Shown: piece after piece, positions 1,371-28,004 of the stretch | Layout: each line of letters opens with the position of its first letter | Numbering within the stretch: the first letter of the stretch is position 1 | Virus record (IMG/VR): IMGVR_UViG_3300047163_000049 | Location: 1 to 39,305 of that record | Length of the DNA stretch: 39,305 bases | Strand: one strand, 5' to 3' | Source of the DNA: a virus | Program-made: the position numbers and the translations under genes | Notes under the pieces: generated by a model | Told to the model about the DNA's origin: nothing | Database searches by the model: none | The model's input: the letters and a program-made list of their open reading frames with translations, nothing else

Positions 1371-4300
1371 TTACCCTCGATTTTGCCCAGATCCGACAGT
1401 GTTACCTTGAGATTGTGTGCGCCAACCCGCTTTTACGGCAACAACTAAATTGATACCAGAAAGAGTAAGCCCAGCGCCGGCAGTGACACCATAAGTAGGG
1501 TCATAAATCTCGTTGAATGAAATCTGAATTGCCGAGCATCTTTTTTGAGCTAAGAATACCCGCCAAGGCTCAACGCTGGTTGACGCGCCAAATGGTGACG
1601 GTTGATCGCCAAAAGGCGACGCCGCACTTGAGTTAAAATTTGTCGGCATAATGAAGTCAGATTGATAGATCGATGCATTGTAATCATAGGCAACACCCAT
1701 GCGCAAAATATGAGGCGACAAGTACTCGCCCAGCAAAAAGTATTCATAAGCCATTTGATAGCCCTGAAGGCCCGCGAGATTAAGCCAAGACGTGAGAAAA
1801 GACATTAGCGTAGGCTCGCCAGCATCTAGATATGTTCCAGGTGTTTCTTGTAAAACCGCGCCATCACCGCGAAGCAGAGTGTGCAGACTTTGATAGAGCG
1901 TAGATGAAATTGCTGAAGCCCCAGAAAACGTGCCCCATTTATCAAAAAAATAATCATACATGAGTTGTACGCCAGTATCGAGAGTGAATCGAACTTGCGT
2001 TGTAGCTGGAATATTTACGGCGCTATTTGCGCTTACTGAATTGAACGCCTCGACAGGAGCGCCGATGTAATTCGTTGAAAGATCTCTGCCGATGAGCCAA
2101 ATGCCCTTATCAGACTGAAACATCAAGCCGCCAGGAATTAAAACAATTGAATTCTGATTCGCGCAACCTACAGAGCTTGTGATAAAAATTGGCTGCGAAT
2201 ATTGATTATTCGAATCTGTATTATCTGGCCCAGATCCATTGATGTAATAAACAGCATCTTGCTTGAACAAAATCAACTTATCATCCATTGGGAATATGCA
2301 AGTGAGGGGTCCTGTCGATCCTTGAGCACCAGTCGAGGGCGCAACATAGAAGGTCGAGAGATCTGACATCTCAACGGGCGTGCCCTCAATAACTTGTTTT
2401 GAAAACCAAAGCAAATTTCTGTCTTCTGCATCGATCAGCCAAAGCCTGTCATCGAAAAGCGCTGTAGCCACAGCAGCCGGGCCAGCAATATCTTCAATCA
2501 CTCCGCCCGTCGTATAAATGATGTTGTTACCAATGATTGAGCTATCAGCAAGTGTATCGACGTAAGCGATAGAGTCTGAAGTCGTTACGTTTAAAGTCGG
2601 CGCCGTGATTGATGTAACCTGATAGTATTCTTGATTAGCGACAGACCATCGATAGATAACTATTTTTACATTAGATTTATAAGTAAGCCTAAGATAAGGC
2701 ACATTAACAGTAATTGAACCAGCAGTCCCAGACCCAGTGGTCGTAACAGATACAGGGACGCTAGAAGCAGAACGATTAATATTGCCGTTGGCGTCTGTCC
2801 ATTCGTAAGTGACTTGATAATAGTAAGCATTTGTATTTGTCGCCCCGTCTGGTTGCGCGTGAATAGAGCCGCCCGTAGTTGACCATGTACACTCAATGCT
2901 GTCTGGGAATAAATGAAAACCCTGCTCTGATACGGTCTGCCCGTCATATGACCAAAGCATCCCGCCAGTGATATTTAGCGAGCTACCAATCTCAGAGGCA
3001 TTTTGAGTTGCTGTCGTGAAATCTAATCCGACAAGATTTACTCCGGTTTGGCTATAAACATTTGACACATTTGGGGCGCCAGAACCGTTAGCGTTTTGTG
3101 TCGTATTCAAAGTCTCAATTAAATCTTTATACAAATACGCAATGTTCGCAGTTGATCCAATCACTTGAGCTTGCGGAAGACCGAGCGTCAAATAACCGCC
3201 ACCATTCTCATATGCAAATCGCGAGTAAATATTGCCAAGCGAGTCGATTAGAAAATAAGTGTTTTGGAACACTGATTGATAAGTAACTAACGTATAGATC
3301 ACTGAGTTATAAATAAAAGATTTAGACGCGAGACCGACAGACCTTAAAATTGTCGTAGTTGATCCTACTGTGCCAGTCGTAACCGTTAACGGTAAAGTAA
3401 CTGCAACCTTATCTATGAAATCAGATTTAATTGACGAGTCATAAGAATAGGCATTATTAACTTCATACAGCGTAGTGACGACACCGTTTTGAGCGGCACA
3501 AGTTATATTATTAACTGTGCCGCTTGATATGATCTGAGTTGGCGACATCCTCTTAGCTAAAGTCGAATCGACAGCTAAAACATAACCAGTACTTGATCCC
3601 GAGCTATAAAAAGATGCATAGATAACGGCGCTATTTTGGCTTGTGTCTACGCATACACTCATCATCGTTGCGGCCCACGAGGCGTTAACGAAAGTTGTTG
3701 CTGCAGACAAAAGCAACTGTTGATTGAGCGTAACGAAATCAATCGCTTGACCGCCGGATGTTGTATTGTAGGCGATAAATAATTGAGTTCCGTAAACCAC
3801 ACCATCCCACGCAACCGTTGAGCTAGGCGCATAAGTCGCCGCGATATCTGCTGGCGCTGTTACCGTCGTCGGCGAGCTTGTCGAAATTGCAACGTACTGA
3901 AGATGTGGAGTTGCGGTTAAAGTATTCGTAAAAACAATAATAAAAAAACCACCGAGTAAAAATACTCTAGGCGAGCCAGTTATTGCTCCAGATCCCGCAG
4001 GTATCAGCGTCGGATTAACTACAGCTTGGCCGGTATTCGAATCTCTAATGTTGTAATAATAATTTGATGTACTGTTGTTGCGCTCAGTGTACACAGTGCA
4101 AACTAGATTATTTGCTGAGATCACAGAGTCACACTGAATTTGATTTATTGCGCTTCGGCCCACGGGAAGAGTTGATAATGTTATTGGGTTAAGATTGCCC
4201 TTTGTAACCCACGATTCGTTACCCGCAGAGTAGGCCTGAAGTGTTGAGCCAATCGCGGTTAGATTGCCGTTCAGTGTTGTTAAGTAGTCAGCGCCAACGA

Positions 4301-4463
4301 CAGAAGAGATTTTGCCGAAACCATTTCGCTTTGTTAAGCGCCCTTGCGTTGTGAATACTGAATTGTCTAAAGACAAGAACTGACCAACGGGCAATTGCCA
4401 TTTGTCTGTCTTTGTATTTAGACCTTCAGAGAAGTTTATGTTTACAGGTTGTTTTTGAAGCAA
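1371..4463 (-). CDS. Large tail hub/nozzle protein (P22 gp10 / T7 gp12-like)
   Basis: A 1030-residue beta-rich protein. The N-terminus has an EGLNTKTDKWQLPVG segment (about residues 14-28), then NSVF and a G-R-L-T-K-R-N-G-F segment. This is the opening I know from P22 gp10 (packaged-DNA stabilization) and from T7 gp12 (tubular protein B) relatives: ordered binding of adaptor, a list of variables, 'first-use' residues and a G-L-x-x-R-x-G motif. The body is Ser/Thr/Asn-rich, with no cysteine-based or catalytic motif visible. Its size and its place shortly after the adaptor and fibre-like genes fit a nozzle that closes the tail tube. The likely start is TTG at 4463, five bases after a GCAGGTG ribosome binding site embedded in the end of the upstream gene. 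Confidence 0.65.
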   Translation of the reverse strand: MLQKQPVNINFSEGLNTKTDKWQLPVGQFLSLDNSVFTTQGRLTKRNGFGKISSVVGADYLTTLNGNLTAIGSTLQAYSAGNESWVTKGNLNPITLSTLPVGRSAINQIQCDSVISANNLVCTVYTERNNSTSNYYYNIRDSNTGQAVVNPTLIPAGSGAITGSPRVFLLGGFFIIVFTNTLTATPHLQYVAISTSSPTTVTAPADIAATYAPSSTVAWDGVVYGTQLFIAYNTTSGGQAIDFVTLNQQLLLSAATTFVNASWAATMMSVCVDTSQNSAVIYASFYSSGSSTGYVLAVDSTLAKRMSPTQIISSGTVNNITCAAQNGVVTTLYEVNNAYSYDSSIKSDFIDKVAVTLPLTVTTGTVGSTTTILRSVGLASKSFIYNSVIYTLVTYQSVFQNTYFLIDSLGNIYSRFAYENGGGYLTLGLPQAQVIGSTANIAYLYKDLIETLNTTQNANGSGAPNVSNVYSQTGVNLVGLDFTTATQNASEIGSSLNITGGMLWSYDGQTVSEQGFHLFPDSIECTWSTTGGSIHAQPDGATNTNAYYYQVTYEWTDANGNINRSASSVPVSVTTTGSGTAGSITVNVPYLRLTYKSNVKIVIYRWSVANQEYYQVTSITAPTLNVTTSDSIAYVDTLADSSIIGNNIIYTTGGVIEDIAGPAAVATALFDDRLWLIDAEDRNLLWFSKQVIEGTPVEMSDLSTFYVAPSTGAQGSTGPLTCIFPMDDKLILFKQDAVYYINGSGPDNTDSNNQYSQPIFITSSVGCANQNSIVLIPGGLMFQSDKGIWLIGRDLSTNYIGAPVEAFNSVSANSAVNIPATTQVRFTLDTGVQLMYDYFFDKWGTFSGASAISSTLYQSLHTLLRGDGAVLQETPGTYLDAGEPTLMSFLTSWLNLAGLQGYQMAYEYFLLGEYLSPHILRMGVAYDYNASIYQSDFIMPTNFNSSAASPFGDQPSPFGASTSVEPWRVFLAQKRCSAIQISFNEIYDPTYGVTAGAGLTLSGINLVVAVKAGWRTQSQGNTVGSGQNRG

Positions 4464-4465
4464 GA

Positions 4466-5686
4466 CTACACCTGCACAACTTGCATTGTGGCGCCAGAGG
4501 CAAGTGTGGCCGTTGCGGGCCCAGACAATGTATTAATAACCCCATACATGTTGGGGAATCTCGTCCCGATGCTTGATGCCGCTGGAATATAAAAACCATT
4601 AAAGACAGATAGTGGGAATACGTAGGTAACTCCGGCGGCTAATGTAATCGTAAATGTCTGAGTATGCCCCGTAAATAAAGATATCCCGTTGGTATTGGCT
4701 GCACCAAAAGTTATTGCATATGTCCCGCCAACGCCACCGCCGCCCGATGCTGTCGTGACAATTGTTACTTGCCCACTAAAACTTAAAAATATTGGGCGAT
4801 TTGTTGCTGGCGACGCTCCAATGGATGCACCAGACACAGAGGGGAATCCATTTACCGATAAGGTCGAAAAAGAAAAACTTGCCGTCGTACTTTGACTCCC
4901 GTAAAGCGCGCTAGTGTAGGTATCCATTTCAAATGGAGTGACCGTATTTTGAGCAAGCTGCGAGCCAAGTATGCCAGCCGAAGCACTGATTGATGCCGTT
5001 GTTATTGTCGCAGGCACTATATTAGATTCAGCAATTGTACTTGCAGCAATATTTGATCCGGTAATGCCACCGGCAATTGCGATACTTGCGCCCATATTCC
5101 CAGACGCATCCATTGTCATAAAGCTTGTTGCACCAGGCGTTAGCGGCAACGTCTGAAGAAGACTCGATGATAAAGTCGGCGCCTGAAGAGTAAGTAGGTT
5201 CGTCAAATTGCCTGAGTTAGTCAAAATGCATGAAAGCATCTCAACGCTCGCGGCTGTCGTTGACGATCCTTTAACTAACAAAACACCAGATGAGAACGCC
5301 GCCGTTGCTGTGCCGCTAGAAATACCAGAGCTTGTCGCATTCACGTTGCCGTTTAAAGTAATCTGAACATGATTGCCGCCGGTGTAATCATTGTAATATA
5401 ATTCGTTACCGACAACATAAAGACACGCGACATCTTGAGCCCCGGCGAGCACAGAAACTTGAGAGATAAAACGAGTAGATCTTAATTGAGTCGCGTTGTT
5501 TGATAAGAATGCAAGGTCAGAAGAAATAAGCATTCCATTTGGTTGAATCTGCAGGCCCTTGCCCGAGCTATGATCATGGTTATCAAGATTCGTCATGTTC
5601 GCGTTGAACGATTGCTCCCAGATAAGACCTGAGTCGATACCGATCGTGGGCAAAACCAAACTTATATTTGAAAGTATTGTAGACAT
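4466..5686 (-). CDS. Tail-fibre-like virion protein
   Basis: A 406-residue protein. Residues near 10-60 read PTIGIDSG..W...FNANMTNLDNHDHSSGKG followed by IQPNGMLISSDLAF. The HDHSSGKG motif with a following I-x-P-x-G is a recurrent N-terminal attachment or fibre signature in phages with short tails. The rest is low-complexity Ser/Thr/Ala/Gly with SNIAASTIAESNIVPATI repeats (a 'generated N-I-x-x-x-T-I' pattern often used for fibre stalks) and a beta-rich C-terminus. The upstream gene's stop abuts its ATG. Likely a minor fibre or tail-knob appendage. Confidence 0.6.
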   Translation of the reverse strand: MSTILSNISLVLPTIGIDSGLIWEQSFNANMTNLDNHDHSSGKGLQIQPNGMLISSDLAFLSNNATQLRSTRFISQVSVLAGAQDVACLYVVGNELYYNDYTGGNHVQITLNGNVNATSSGISSGTATAAFSSGVLLVKGSSTTAASVEMLSCILTNSGNLTNLLTLQAPTLSSSLLQTLPLTPGATSFMTMDASGNMGASIAIAGGITGSNIAASTIAESNIVPATITTASISASAGILGSQLAQNTVTPFEMDTYTSALYGSQSTTASFSFSTLSVNGFPSVSGASIGASPATNRPIFLSFSGQVTIVTTASGGGGVGGTYAITFGAANTNGISLFTGHTQTFTITLAAGVTYVFPLSVFNGFYIPAASSIGTRFPNMYGVINTLSGPATATLASGATMQVVQV

Positions 5687-24065: not shown

Positions 24066-24359
24066 ATGAGTAAAAAGGTGCCAGTACTAATAACCACAGA
24101 CAACACAAAGCGCGGTGTCTTCATGGGCTTTATTGACCCTGCCGACGCAGACAAAACAGATCTTTATGCCGATGAAGTTCGTATGGCCGTGATGTGGTCT
24201 GCTGAAATTCGTGGCGTTGTGGGTCTTGCCGCCAAAGGTCCGAACAAAAGTTGTCGTATATCGCCAGCAGCCAAGAGGGCACATATCAAAGGCGTAACGG
24301 CGACTCTCGAGCTCTCAGACGAGGCTCTCGAAGCATGGAGAAAAGAGCCGTGGGCCTAA
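24066..24359 (+). CDS. DUF6948-like phage protein
   Basis: A 97-residue protein. Layout: a beta strand KVPVLITTDNTKRGVFMGFI, a DEVRMAVMWSAEIRGVVGLAAKGP segment, CRISPAAK, a strand VTATLELS and a final EALEAWRKEPWA. It resembles the small phage family I know as DUF6948 (TT-x-x-RGV-F-x-G ... W-S ... G-x-x-GLA-x-x-GP ... A-x-x-A-W). That number is from memory. No enzymatic role is known. It starts after a GGAG site at 24057 and is followed within 14 nt by the glycine-repeat gene. Confidence 0.6.
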   Translation: MSKKVPVLITTDNTKRGVFMGFIDPADADKTDLYADEVRMAVMWSAEIRGVVGLAAKGPNKSCRISPAAKRAHIKGVTATLELSDEALEAWRKEPWA

Positions 24360-24373
24360 AAATATTTGGCGGG

Positions 24374-24805
24374 ATGTTAAAAAATTTTTTTAGCTACGGC
24401 TACGGCGACGGCAGCGGCTACGGCGACGGCAACGGCGACGGCAGCGGCTACGGCGACGGCAACGGCAACGGCAGCGGCTACGGCGACGGCTACGGCAACG
24501 GCAGCGGCTACGGCGACGGCGACGGCAACGGCTACGGCTACGGCGACGGCAACGGCAACGGCTACGGCAGCGGCTACGGCGACGGCTACGGCGACGGCAG
24601 CGGCTACGGCGACGGCAACGGCTACGGCTACGGCGACGGCAACGGCAACGGCAACGGCAACGGCTACGGCTACGGCGACGGCGACGGCTACGGCAATGGC
24701 TACGGCGACGGCTACGGCAATGGCCGCGGCGACAGCTACGGCGACGGCGACGCCTACGGCTCTAAAGAAAATTGGCCGAAGGCCGGGGCCGAGGTGGTCG
24801 CATGA
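24374..24805 (+). CDS. Glycine-repeat low-complexity protein
   Basis: A 143-residue protein from the ATG at 24374; the frame is open further upstream from a TTG at 24251. After MLKNFFS it is a run of about 60 two-residue units G-x, where x is mostly Y, D, N or S, ending KENWPKAGAEVVA. At DNA level it is a hexamer repeat GGC-NAC/AGC in which nearly all variation falls in one base of the second codon. The stop overlaps the next ATG (ATGA), and the upstream gene ends 14 nt before it, so it is an operon member rather than an accident. It could be a disordered linker, an adhesin-like strand or a condensate-forming segment. Confidence 0.6.
   Translation: MLKNFFSYGYGDGSGYGDGNGDGSGYGDGNGNGSGYGDGYGNGSGYGDGDGNGYGYGDGNGNGYGSGYGDGYGDGSGYGDGNGYGYGDGNGNGNGNGYGYGDGDGYGNGYGDGYGNGRGDSYGDGDAYGSKENWPKAGAEVVA
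24398..24763 (+). repeat. Hexanucleotide tandem repeat GGC-(T/G/A)AC with AGC variants
   Basis: About 60 copies, always GGC for glycine, alternating with TAC, GAC, AAC or AGC. It lies inside the glycine-repeat gene. The composition (much richer in GC than the genome) and near-perfect period six point to expansion by slippage and selection for G-x repeats. Confidence 0.85.
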
Positions 24806-25479
24806 TCGAAGATTTACAAAATTATGCAAATGGAATCGCTGCGAATGTCGAAGTTATATCGTGGCTTAATACCACTGGTAAGAAAGCAATTGAAAAACGC
24901 GGCGCAACCATTTCTGAACTAGAACATATTTTAGATTTTTTTGTCTCTGGTGCGGCTCCAAATCGTCTGCAGAAAATGGCTTATGTTGATGCGAAAAGAA
25001 AAGCTGAAGAGTGGAGCAAGAGAAATCAAAAAAAGGGCAGAGACCTAGTCGATTCAAAAGATGACATAGAGACCATTCATAAATTCAAAGATGGCTCTGC
25101 GATAGTAAAGCTGAAAACCAAAACCGCACTTCAGCGCGAAGGCTTTTTAATGAGTCATTGTGTTGGCGGCTATCAGTTGAGTAACGAGTGCCAAATTTAT
25201 TCTTATCGTGACAAGAAAAATATGCCTCACGCCACATTTGAAGTCAGAAGATCTGGCAAAGAAATTACGCAAATAAAAGGCAAAGGTAACGGAGCAATTC
25301 ATCCGAATTACATCAAGCCAATTTTGGTTTTTCTTAAAAAGATTGGAATAGAAGTCAGGCCATCCGATATGGTTAACCTTGGCTACTATCATATTCACAA
25401 AGATCATTTGAAGTATTTAATGAAGACCAAAGCAAAAGAGCAGATTACGGTTATTGGTGGAGAATCTTATGCGTTTTAA
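24802..25479 (+). CDS. PcfJ-like protein
   Basis: A 225-residue protein starting at ATG 24802, four-base overlap with the glycine-repeat gene and a GAGGTG site upstream. The signature block is LMSHCVGGY (residues 116-124), IYSYRD (132-137), PHATFEV (142-148) and QIKGKGN (157-163). I recognise this as the conserved core of PcfJ-like proteins (C-V-G-x-Y ... I-x-S-x-R-D ... P-x-A-T-x-E-V ... Q-I-K-G-x-x-N), known from conjugative elements and phages. Biochemical role unknown. The cysteine and charged residues in the block are the candidates for a site. Confidence 0.75.
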   Translation: MIEDLQNYANGIAANVEVISWLNTTGKKAIEKRGATISELEHILDFFVSGAAPNRLQKMAYVDAKRKAEEWSKRNQKKGRDLVDSKDDIETIHKFKDGSAIVKLKTKTALQREGFLMSHCVGGYQLSNECQIYSYRDKKNMPHATFEVRRSGKEITQIKGKGNGAIHPNYIKPILVFLKKIGIEVRPSDMVNLGYYHIHKDHLKYLMKTKAKEQITVIGGESYAF

Positions 25480-27124: not shown

Positions 27125-27156
27125 AACAAGCCTTCGAGGCAGTATAAAAAGGGATG
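27125..27156 (+). repeat. Start-associated element, copy 9 (variant)
   Basis: AACAAGC-N6-GGCAGTATAAAAAGGGATG: it follows the tRNA and precedes the methyltransferase start. Together with copy 4 it brackets the tRNA. Confidence 0.45.
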
Positions 27157-27158
27157 AA

Positions 27159-28004
27159 ATGTTAAATGGCTTGGATTTATTCAGTGGCATCGGCGGAATC
27201 ACACTCGCACTCGGAGACTGGGTGCGGCCCGTCGCATATTGTGAACGTGATAGATTCTGCCAAGCCGAACTCATGTCTAGAATTGCAGACAGACAATTGC
27301 CGCGCGCCCCGGTCTGGGATGACGTCACAACCCTTAACGGTCACGGAATGCCTATCGACATTATTTATGGAGGATTCCCATGCCAGGACATTAGCGCTGC
27401 GGGCTATGGAGTCGGCTTGGGCGGTGAGCGAAGCGGCCTTTTCAACCACATCGCGCGGCTTATCAAAGAAACAAACCCGAAGTTTGTATTTCTCGAAAAC
27501 GTCCCAGCAATTAGAACTCGTGGCCTCAACTGTGTCGCACAAACATTTACCGAGCTCGGGTATGATTATAGATGGACAATTGTTTCAGCCAAAGAAGTTG
27601 GAGCTTGTCACATCCGAAAACGCTGGTTCATGCTTGCCCACGCCCACGGCGCAGAATTACGGCCACAACCAGGGCGGAGCCGCGGGAAGAAACGGACGGC
27701 GAAGAATGTCGATAGACTCGATGGCTCGCCGCGGACTTATACCGACACCAATGGCCCGGGATTGGAAAGGTTCTGGAGGAACGAATCGCGAATCCCCAGA
27801 CCTGCCATTTACAATGGGTGGAGCTCTCAACCCACCATTCGTCGAAGAAATAATGGGATACCCTTTAGGATGGACAGAATTAAAGCCTTGGGCAATAGCG
27901 TGGTGCCGGCCCAAGCGAGAGAAGCGTTCATGAGATTAATGGGATTAAAAAATACTGCCAATACGGCAGGTGCAAAAGATGAGTGTACAGAAAAATGCAA
28001 TTGA
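27159..28004 (+). CDS. C5-cytosine DNA methyltransferase
   Basis: A 281-residue protein from the ATG at 27159. Motifs: I DLFSGIGG (6-13, S-adenosylmethionine binding), IV GGFPCQDIS with catalytic C75, VI ENV (113-115), VIII HIRKRWF (151-157), and X LGNSVVPAQAREAF (244-257). The target-recognition part is short (about 160-225), giving a compact solitary methylase, probably used to protect phage DNA or silence host restriction. Its C-terminal tail contains repeat copy 5 (NTANTAGAK). No partner nuclease is seen. A second frame of 255 codons overlaps it (27166-27933). Confidence 0.9.
   Translation: MLNGLDLFSGIGGITLALGDWVRPVAYCERDRFCQAELMSRIADRQLPRAPVWDDVTTLNGHGMPIDIIYGGFPCQDISAAGYGVGLGGERSGLFNHIARLIKETNPKFVFLENVPAIRTRGLNCVAQTFTELGYDYRWTIVSAKEVGACHIRKRWFMLAHAHGAELRPQPGRSRGKKRTAKNVDRLDGSPRTYTDTNGPGLERFWRNESRIPRPAIYNGWSSQPTIRRRNNGIPFRMDRIKALGNSVVPAQAREAFMRLMGLKNTANTAGAKDECTEKCN
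27166..27933 (+). other. Overlapping +1 frame with methyltransferase-associated sequence features
   Basis: A 255-codon frame nested in the methylase gene. Its second half reads CLPTPTAQNYGHNQGG (about 156-171), then IPTPMARDWKGSGG (192-205) and MGGALNPPFVEEIM with GYPLGWTELKP (about 217-241). I recognise repeated PTPTA and LNP-x-F/W-V-E-x-L/I-M-G-x-P-x-GWT-x-L sequences as features of some bacterial and phage cytosine-methylase-related proteins. I cannot say whether those known proteins are themselves alternate-frame readings. Not called as a certain gene. Confidence 0.35.
27953..27981 (+). repeat. Start-associated element, copy 5
   Basis: TACTGC-N6-GGCAGGTG, then CAAAAGATG. It encodes part of the methylase tail and places its AGGTG box before an ATG at 27979. 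Confidence 0.6.

Follow-up and report, generated by a model that had tools for sequence, protein, structure and literature searches.

According to a report by Lee, Kam and Shaw in 1995, the small open reading frame (ORF) of the methyltransferase M.EcoHK31I is nested within the large gene, in a different frame. In M.EcoHK31I, which recognizes YGGCCR, motifs I–VIII and X are carried by the larger polypeptide and motif IX by a smaller second one; its recognition domain has been reported as predicted in the larger chain (PMC3404938). M.AquI (CYCGRG) is composed of α and β chains that are split after motif VIII, with β carrying motifs IX and X (PMC3404938). An out-of-frame ORF within a phage methylase gene has also been described for the hidden HNH endonuclease of the ShiLan domain, which is an inserted homing endonuclease (PMC11855218). 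In the literature that we searched, mostly the open part outside subscription journals, such an overlap is not described as general among phage methylases.

The DNA considered here, called the window, is the whole stretch of 39,305 nucleotides of the virus record IMGVR_UViG_3300047163_000049, from a phage that carries an integrase and a terminase. On its + strand, a C5-methylase gene in frame 0 runs from the ATG at 27159 to the stop at 28004 (281 amino acids), while the +1 frame of the same gene is open from the ATG at 27166 to the stop at 27933 (255 amino acids). An ORF check returned both frames exactly where an earlier note on this DNA had placed them (27159–28004; 27166–27933, 255 codons), and the PTP blocks, LNPPFVEEIM and GYPLGWTELKP that it had picked out are indeed present in the translated +1 product, which contains LPTPTAQNYG, LIPTPMARDWKG and the latter two segments. 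The features of the locus are the following:

27150–27154, + strand: putative Shine-Dalgarno-like AGGGA, from reading of the sequence, 4 nt before the ATG at 27159 and 11 nt before the ATG at 27166
27159–28004, + strand: frame-0 ORF, proposed large (catalytic) subunit of a C5 cytosine methyltransferase with motifs I–VIII and X (PF00145, phrog_363, M.HhaI, AF2)
27163–27168, + strand: +1 stop TAA (27163–27165), then +1 start ATG (27166–27168), a pattern that recurs in relatives
27166–27933, + strand: +1 ORF, proposed small (target-recognition/motif IX) subunit (stop depletion, conservation, substitutions; further, homology to the in-frame recognition region of actinophage methylases, and phrog_1008)
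27171–27197, + strand: motif I, LDLFSGIGG, frame 0, with invariant or near-invariant columns
27369–27395, + strand: motif IV, GGFPCQDIS, with the catalytic Cys, frame 0 (PCQ invariant); +1 reading EDSHARTLA (block z = 8.6)
27495–27503, + strand: motif VI, ENV, frame 0 (E113 and N114 invariant)
27556–27591, + strand: conserved N-terminal part of the +1 protein, SGMIIDGQLFQP, overlapping frame-0 GYDYRW (z = 22.5; predicted short hairpin)
27600–27638, + strand: motif VIII region, GACHIRKRWFMLA, frame 0 (conserved columns; end of the M.HhaI alignment)
27634–27651, + strand: first recognition block, LPTPTA, +1 frame (z = 23.6; in-frame counterpart in actinophages)
27645–27863, + strand: unconserved, mostly predicted disordered frame-0 stretch from motif VIII to motif X (dNN/dSN 0.87 in the recognition region, 0.79 in the IX-like segment)
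27736–27771, + strand: second recognition block, LIPTPMARDWKG, +1 frame (z = 34.9)
27826–27882, + strand: motif-IX-like segment, LNPPFVEEIMGYPLGWTEL, +1 frame (z = 55.5; ratios 0.25 and 0.15; actinophage profile match)
27882–27914, + strand: motif X, KALGNSVVPAQ, frame 0 (G245 and N246 invariant; V249 and P250 near-invariant)

By description, the window resembles M.EcoHK31I in having a large chain with motifs I–VIII and X and a second chain with motif IX (IX-like in the window), and in the window the second ORF is nested in another frame; it differs in that the recognition domain of M.EcoHK31I is predicted in the larger chain, whereas the window has both its PTP blocks and the IX-like segment in the +1 frame. 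The likeness to M.AquI lies in two chains split after motif VIII, as in the loci L257 and L260 and in the Upyo gp54/gp53 pair. In M.AquI the β chain has motif X together with IX, a combination that L257 and L260 share, but the window keeps motif X in frame 0. The actinophage proteins Rita gp76 and prophiGD91-2 gp27 also have PTPxAxDG blocks and an EWMMGWPxGW segment between motifs VIII and X, but within one reading frame and one chain. With the ShiLan-domain HNH endonuclease the window shares the trait of a phage methylase gene that contains an ORF out of frame. An inserted endonuclease such as that of PMC11855218 is not favoured for the window; the present +1 ORF is no insertion, spans the methylase core and has no Pfam match. 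The overlapping split C5 methyltransferase is best read as a known but barely sampled kind of enzyme, with M.EcoHK31I as its precedent. What appears to be new is the generality of the overlap in phages and prophages of many phyla, the evidence for selection and the arrangement of the start codons.

The frame-0 chain possesses motifs I, IV (PCQ), VI (ENV), VIII and X of C5 methyltransferases together with their large-domain fold, while lacking the target-recognition domain and motif IX that a monomeric enzyme has in the same chain. The earlier note had regarded it as complete, with all motifs from I to X; this claim has to be reduced to I–VIII and X, given that PF00145 (E 8.6e-37) aligns residues 3–213 with profile positions 2–216 of 324 and stops there. 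The alignment with M.HhaI ends at residue 162, within the motif VIII region, and phrog_363 matches frame 0 with E 8.9e-60. Foldseek with the AF2 model retrieves M.HhaI and M.HaeIII. The model itself (pTM 0.74) has a confident large domain onto which motif X is packed as a helix (block pLDDT 97), and no folded small domain, the place of which is mostly predicted to be disordered (residues 161–240, block pLDDT 46–69). Between motifs VIII and X the consensus of the homologue alignment is all x, that is, unconserved. Used as a single query in the viral scan, the frame-0 sequence gave one distant match only.

The consensus of the +1 frame has PTPxARDxK blocks and LNPxFVExxMGYPxGWT. A profile of the +1 family matches the recognition/IX region that actinophage enzymes have in frame (97.8% probability, E 1.2e-12), and by such comparison the C-terminal part of the +1 product is homologous to the recognition/IX region of single-frame methylases. 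We call its last segment motif-IX-like from its position and homology: it resides in the proposed second polypeptide, is homologous to what the actinophage enzymes have in frame from motif VIII to motif X and has the strongest +1 constraint. The N-terminal part of the +1 protein, which lies over motifs IV–VIII, is also conserved and is without counterpart in single-chain methylases. Searches of the +1 protein against Pfam, NCBIfam and PADLOC gave no match, a profile search against solved structures gave nothing useful, and AF2 modelled the chain alone with low confidence (pTM 0.27). The protein does match phrog_1008 (E 2.8e-15). This PHROGs family goes by the name of DNA methyltransferase. Its matches cover a large part of +1-type recognition chains, plus motif X, and so it seems to be built from recognition, not catalytic, chains.

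That the +1 frame is real and selected, and more than chance, is strongly supported. In the window gene, 20,000 synonymous-codon permutations produced a longest +1 stop-free run of 95 codons on average and 242 at most, against the 255 observed. An unbiased set of 81 genes was assembled from 80 loci picked by their frame-0 catalytic core only, plus the window, and the expected number of +1 stops was derived by shuffling synonymous codons within each gene. These genes have 147 stops in the +1 frame versus 552 expected, and many of those observed stand alone at +1 codon 1 or 2, just upstream of the +1 ATG. There is no deficit in their +2 frame (1283 observed vs. 1171 expected), nor in the +1 frame of 121 other long ORFs from the same loci that served as control (1766 vs. 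1796). Over frame-0 codons 73–216, moreover, 77 homologues less than 90% identical, again picked by the frame-0 core only, have no +1 stop where about 240 are expected. Conservation of +1 residues across 77 sequences exceeds that of a synonymous-permutation null, with z = 29.6 at LYFSKTSQQLEL, 22.5 at SGMIIDGQLFQP, 23.6 at SCLPTPTAQNYG, 34.9 at LIPTPMARDWKG and 55.5 at EEIMGYPLGWTE. Both signs of a selected same-strand +1 overlap, fewer stops and more residue conservation than frame 0 imposes, are consequently present. The reciprocal test finds frame 0 constrained too, least in the recognition region, in an alignment that was made on frame 0 and favours this test.

How the constraint is shared along the gene emerges from substitutions classed by their effect in both frames, in 63 independent pairs and with ratios uncorrected for multiple hits. 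For the +1 frame, dNN/dNS and dSN/dSS are 0.76/0.29 in the N-terminal part, 0.56/0.41 over motifs IV–VIII, 0.60/0.55 in the recognition region, 0.25/0.15 in the IX-like segment and 0.76/0.41 after it, as compared with 0.89/0.92 in the control ORFs. The frame-0 ratio dNN/dSN over the same five segments is 0.23, 0.22, 0.87, 0.79 and 0.45 (control 0.25). Frame 0 is therefore selected at motifs I–VIII and X, and the +1 frame at the recognition blocks and the IX-like segment; in the latter, changes silent in +1 are tolerated, unlike those that are silent in frame 0 alone. There is additional +1 constraint over motifs IV–VIII. Purifying selection on +1 amino acids is thus found by comparison with the control ORFs, and the more diverged pairs taken solely from the unbiased set go in the same direction (IX 0.47/0.27, recognition 0.79/0.64, IV–VIII 0.73/0.41), except in the N-terminal part (first 60 +1 codons), where they are equivocal (1.05/0.51). 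Chance openness of the frame is rejected by the stop deficit and the 20,000 permutations, composition or codon usage by the permutations and the control genes, a by-product of frame-0 conservation by the +1 residue conservation beyond the null, and a nucleic-acid-level signal by the frame-specific pattern of substitutions.

The start codons of the two frames are 7 nt apart in the window, and in many relatives a second ATG lies 4 or 7 nt 3' of the first, right behind a +1 stop (stop followed by MSW or MAW). At the place of the +1 ATG, Asn is encoded by AAT in 44 of 50 cases, as against 170 of 347 Asn codons in the rest of these genes (P = 8e-8); the +1 start codon is conserved. Some subfamilies (L189, L190) have +1 stops upstream of motif IV and no neighbouring start, and initiation must differ in these. 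The two ORFs, the protein-level constraint on both frames, its handover from one to the other and the conservation of the +1 start are shown by these analyses, as is the homology of the +1 C-terminal part.

All this is very probably explained by a split C5 cytosine methyltransferase, the two pieces of which are encoded by overlapping frames of the same DNA. We infer that translation is initiated at both ATGs: ribosomes starting at 27159 would make the large subunit, with AdoMet binding, the catalytic Cys (PCQ), motifs I–VIII, a loose linker and motif X, and those starting 7 nt downstream, at 27166, would make the +1 subunit of 255 residues, which provides the segment for target recognition as well as the motif-IX-like helix. 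Both chains would assemble as a heterodimer into one active enzyme, which would take its large domain from frame 0 and its small domain from the +1 frame. Such an enzyme would methylate the phage DNA and probably evade host restriction, a role that phage methylases ordinarily have and that we assume here.

That the +1 frame holds the segment coming after motif VIII in single-frame methylases, and that frame 0 is weakly constrained in the recognition region, would also suit a programmed +1 ribosomal frameshift near the boundary of motif VIII and the recognition region, producing one fused polypeptide. We regard this as unlikely, for constraint on the +1 frame is already seen ahead of such a shift (0.56/0.41 over IV–VIII; z of 20–30), the +1 start ATG is conserved and frame 0 stays open with a conserved motif X; a fused chain would, besides, be without motif X, because in the window type X is back in frame 0. 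A true overlapping gene with another job, for instance as a regulator of the methylase or with an effect on host restriction, and having no more than a resemblance to recognition domains, would account for the conserved N-terminal part that single-chain enzymes lack and for the missing matches in Pfam, NCBIfam and PADLOC. It seems quite improbable in view of the C-terminal profile match to the in-frame recognition/IX region (E 1.2e-12), the frame-0 model devoid of a recognition domain (AF2) and the +1 chain of L257 and L260, which has motif X too, with no matching X downstream in frame 0. Finally, the idea that there is no second gene, the +1 pattern arising as a side effect of conservation in frame 0, of codon usage or of a DNA or RNA signal and the +1 annotations being wrong, can appeal to nearly all matches being alternate-frame readings of C5-methylase genes, but is hardly credible when permutations keeping protein and codon usage fail to reproduce the pattern, neighbouring genes and the +2 frame are without it, and the IX-like segment tolerates +1-silent changes and not those silent only in frame 0.

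The overlap of the two frames is far from confined to the window. Viral loci similar to the +1 protein have the C5 core one base back in 98 of 100 cases, the other two being truncated, and in the plasmid and phage records that match it the match is also in the +1 frame of a C5-methylase gene. A scan of genomes with alignment A5 (A3 and A2 were too diverse) found the core in 80 of 80 bacterial, archaeal and MAG contigs retrieved with the +1 alignment, from Pseudomonadota, Verrucomicrobia, Planctomycetes, Acidobacteria (Geothrix), Myxococcota, Spirochaetes and others. From codon 61 up to the IX-like segment, or to where the examined stretch ends, the +1 frame is free of stops in all 80; this stretch is short in the six contigs with a short frame 0. 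These data bear differently on the three options of the earlier note. A true overlapping gene is strongly supported by stops, conservation and substitution ratios. That the known proteins are alternate-frame readings holds to the letter for the homologues (98 of 100 viral loci), without refuting the gene, since the constraint is strong: the note had considered matches exclusively of this kind, combined with an unconstrained +1 frame, as fatal to its proposal, and constraint was found by stops, conservation and substitutions alike. An ancestral methylase fused out of frame is right insofar as the +1 frame holds a recognition/IX segment that is in frame with the core in actinophages, but wrong as stated, because the +1 frame is no relic and is maintained along its length, including over motifs IV–VIII.

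The deposited records that we inspected annotate one frame or the other. Acinetobacter and Salmonella phage records have frame 0 alone. Conversely, in Pseudomonas phage VB_PaD_phPA-G (L001, 2501–3229) the +1 ORF alone is annotated, as a hypothetical protein, and the frame-0 C5 methylase is unannotated. Gene callers normally retain one ORF per stretch, and as a result one subunit is missing in the records inspected. Two loci, L230 (1442–1936) and L231 (2997–3506), have an early frame-0 stop just past motif VIII with an intact +1 frame, motif X being still recognisable downstream in frame 0; this stop may be a MAG sequencing error or a different way of making the chains. Another locus, L250, seems to be a damaged or wrongly assembled copy and was set aside as evidence.

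The pieces are arranged in other ways elsewhere. Rita gp76 (from a Mycobacterium phage) and prophiGD91-2 gp27 have the core, the PTP blocks, EWMMGWPAGWVT and motif X in a single chain. The actinophages Upyo (gp54/gp53) and Ovechkin (gp69/gp70) have pairs of annotated genes, in which the second gene uses the +1 frame relative to the first; in these, as in L257 (Paraburkholderia adhaesiva, 2983–4497) and L260 (a Spirochaetia MAG, 3001–4167), frame 0 stops past motif VIII and the +1 chain has recognition blocks, IX-like segment and X. The +1 ORF of L257 and L260 starts near or upstream of the frame-0 start, and their motif X is in the +1 frame, other than in the window type, with no matching segment downstream in frame 0. 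In tblastn a +1 protein matches many mycobacteriophage records across two adjacent DNA methylase genes, such as Peaches gp76/gp77, a pattern consistent with a split enzyme present as two annotated genes.

In evolutionary perspective, there is probably a large and ancient superfamily of phage and prophage C5 methyltransferases that is dual-coded as a rule, many members having two starts 4–7 nt apart behind one ribosome-binding site. If so, few long same-strand gene overlaps in prokaryotes would be as widespread as this one, which annotation would systematically lack, and the annotation of many phage C5 methylases would cover just half of the enzyme. The shifts in frame of motif X and the recognition blocks among the three layouts (window type, L257/L260 type and actinophage single-frame type) would then record the dividing and re-fusing of a split enzyme. 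Frame 0 on its own, or a codon-optimised version of it, would then fail as a basis for cloning or for predicting specificity, since recoding would destroy the second subunit. The superfamily would also offer a large natural data set of one DNA sequence serving two proteins, with the load of constraint shifting between frames along the gene.

The few ORFs that were scanned around the methylase gene of the window included no recognisable restriction enzyme. A GC-rich, low-complexity stretch (24206–24866) separates the integrase gene from the methylase operon; its frame 0 is a long run of (YG)DGNG-like repeats (YGDGNGNGSGYGDG...), and several further frames are open there owing to composition.
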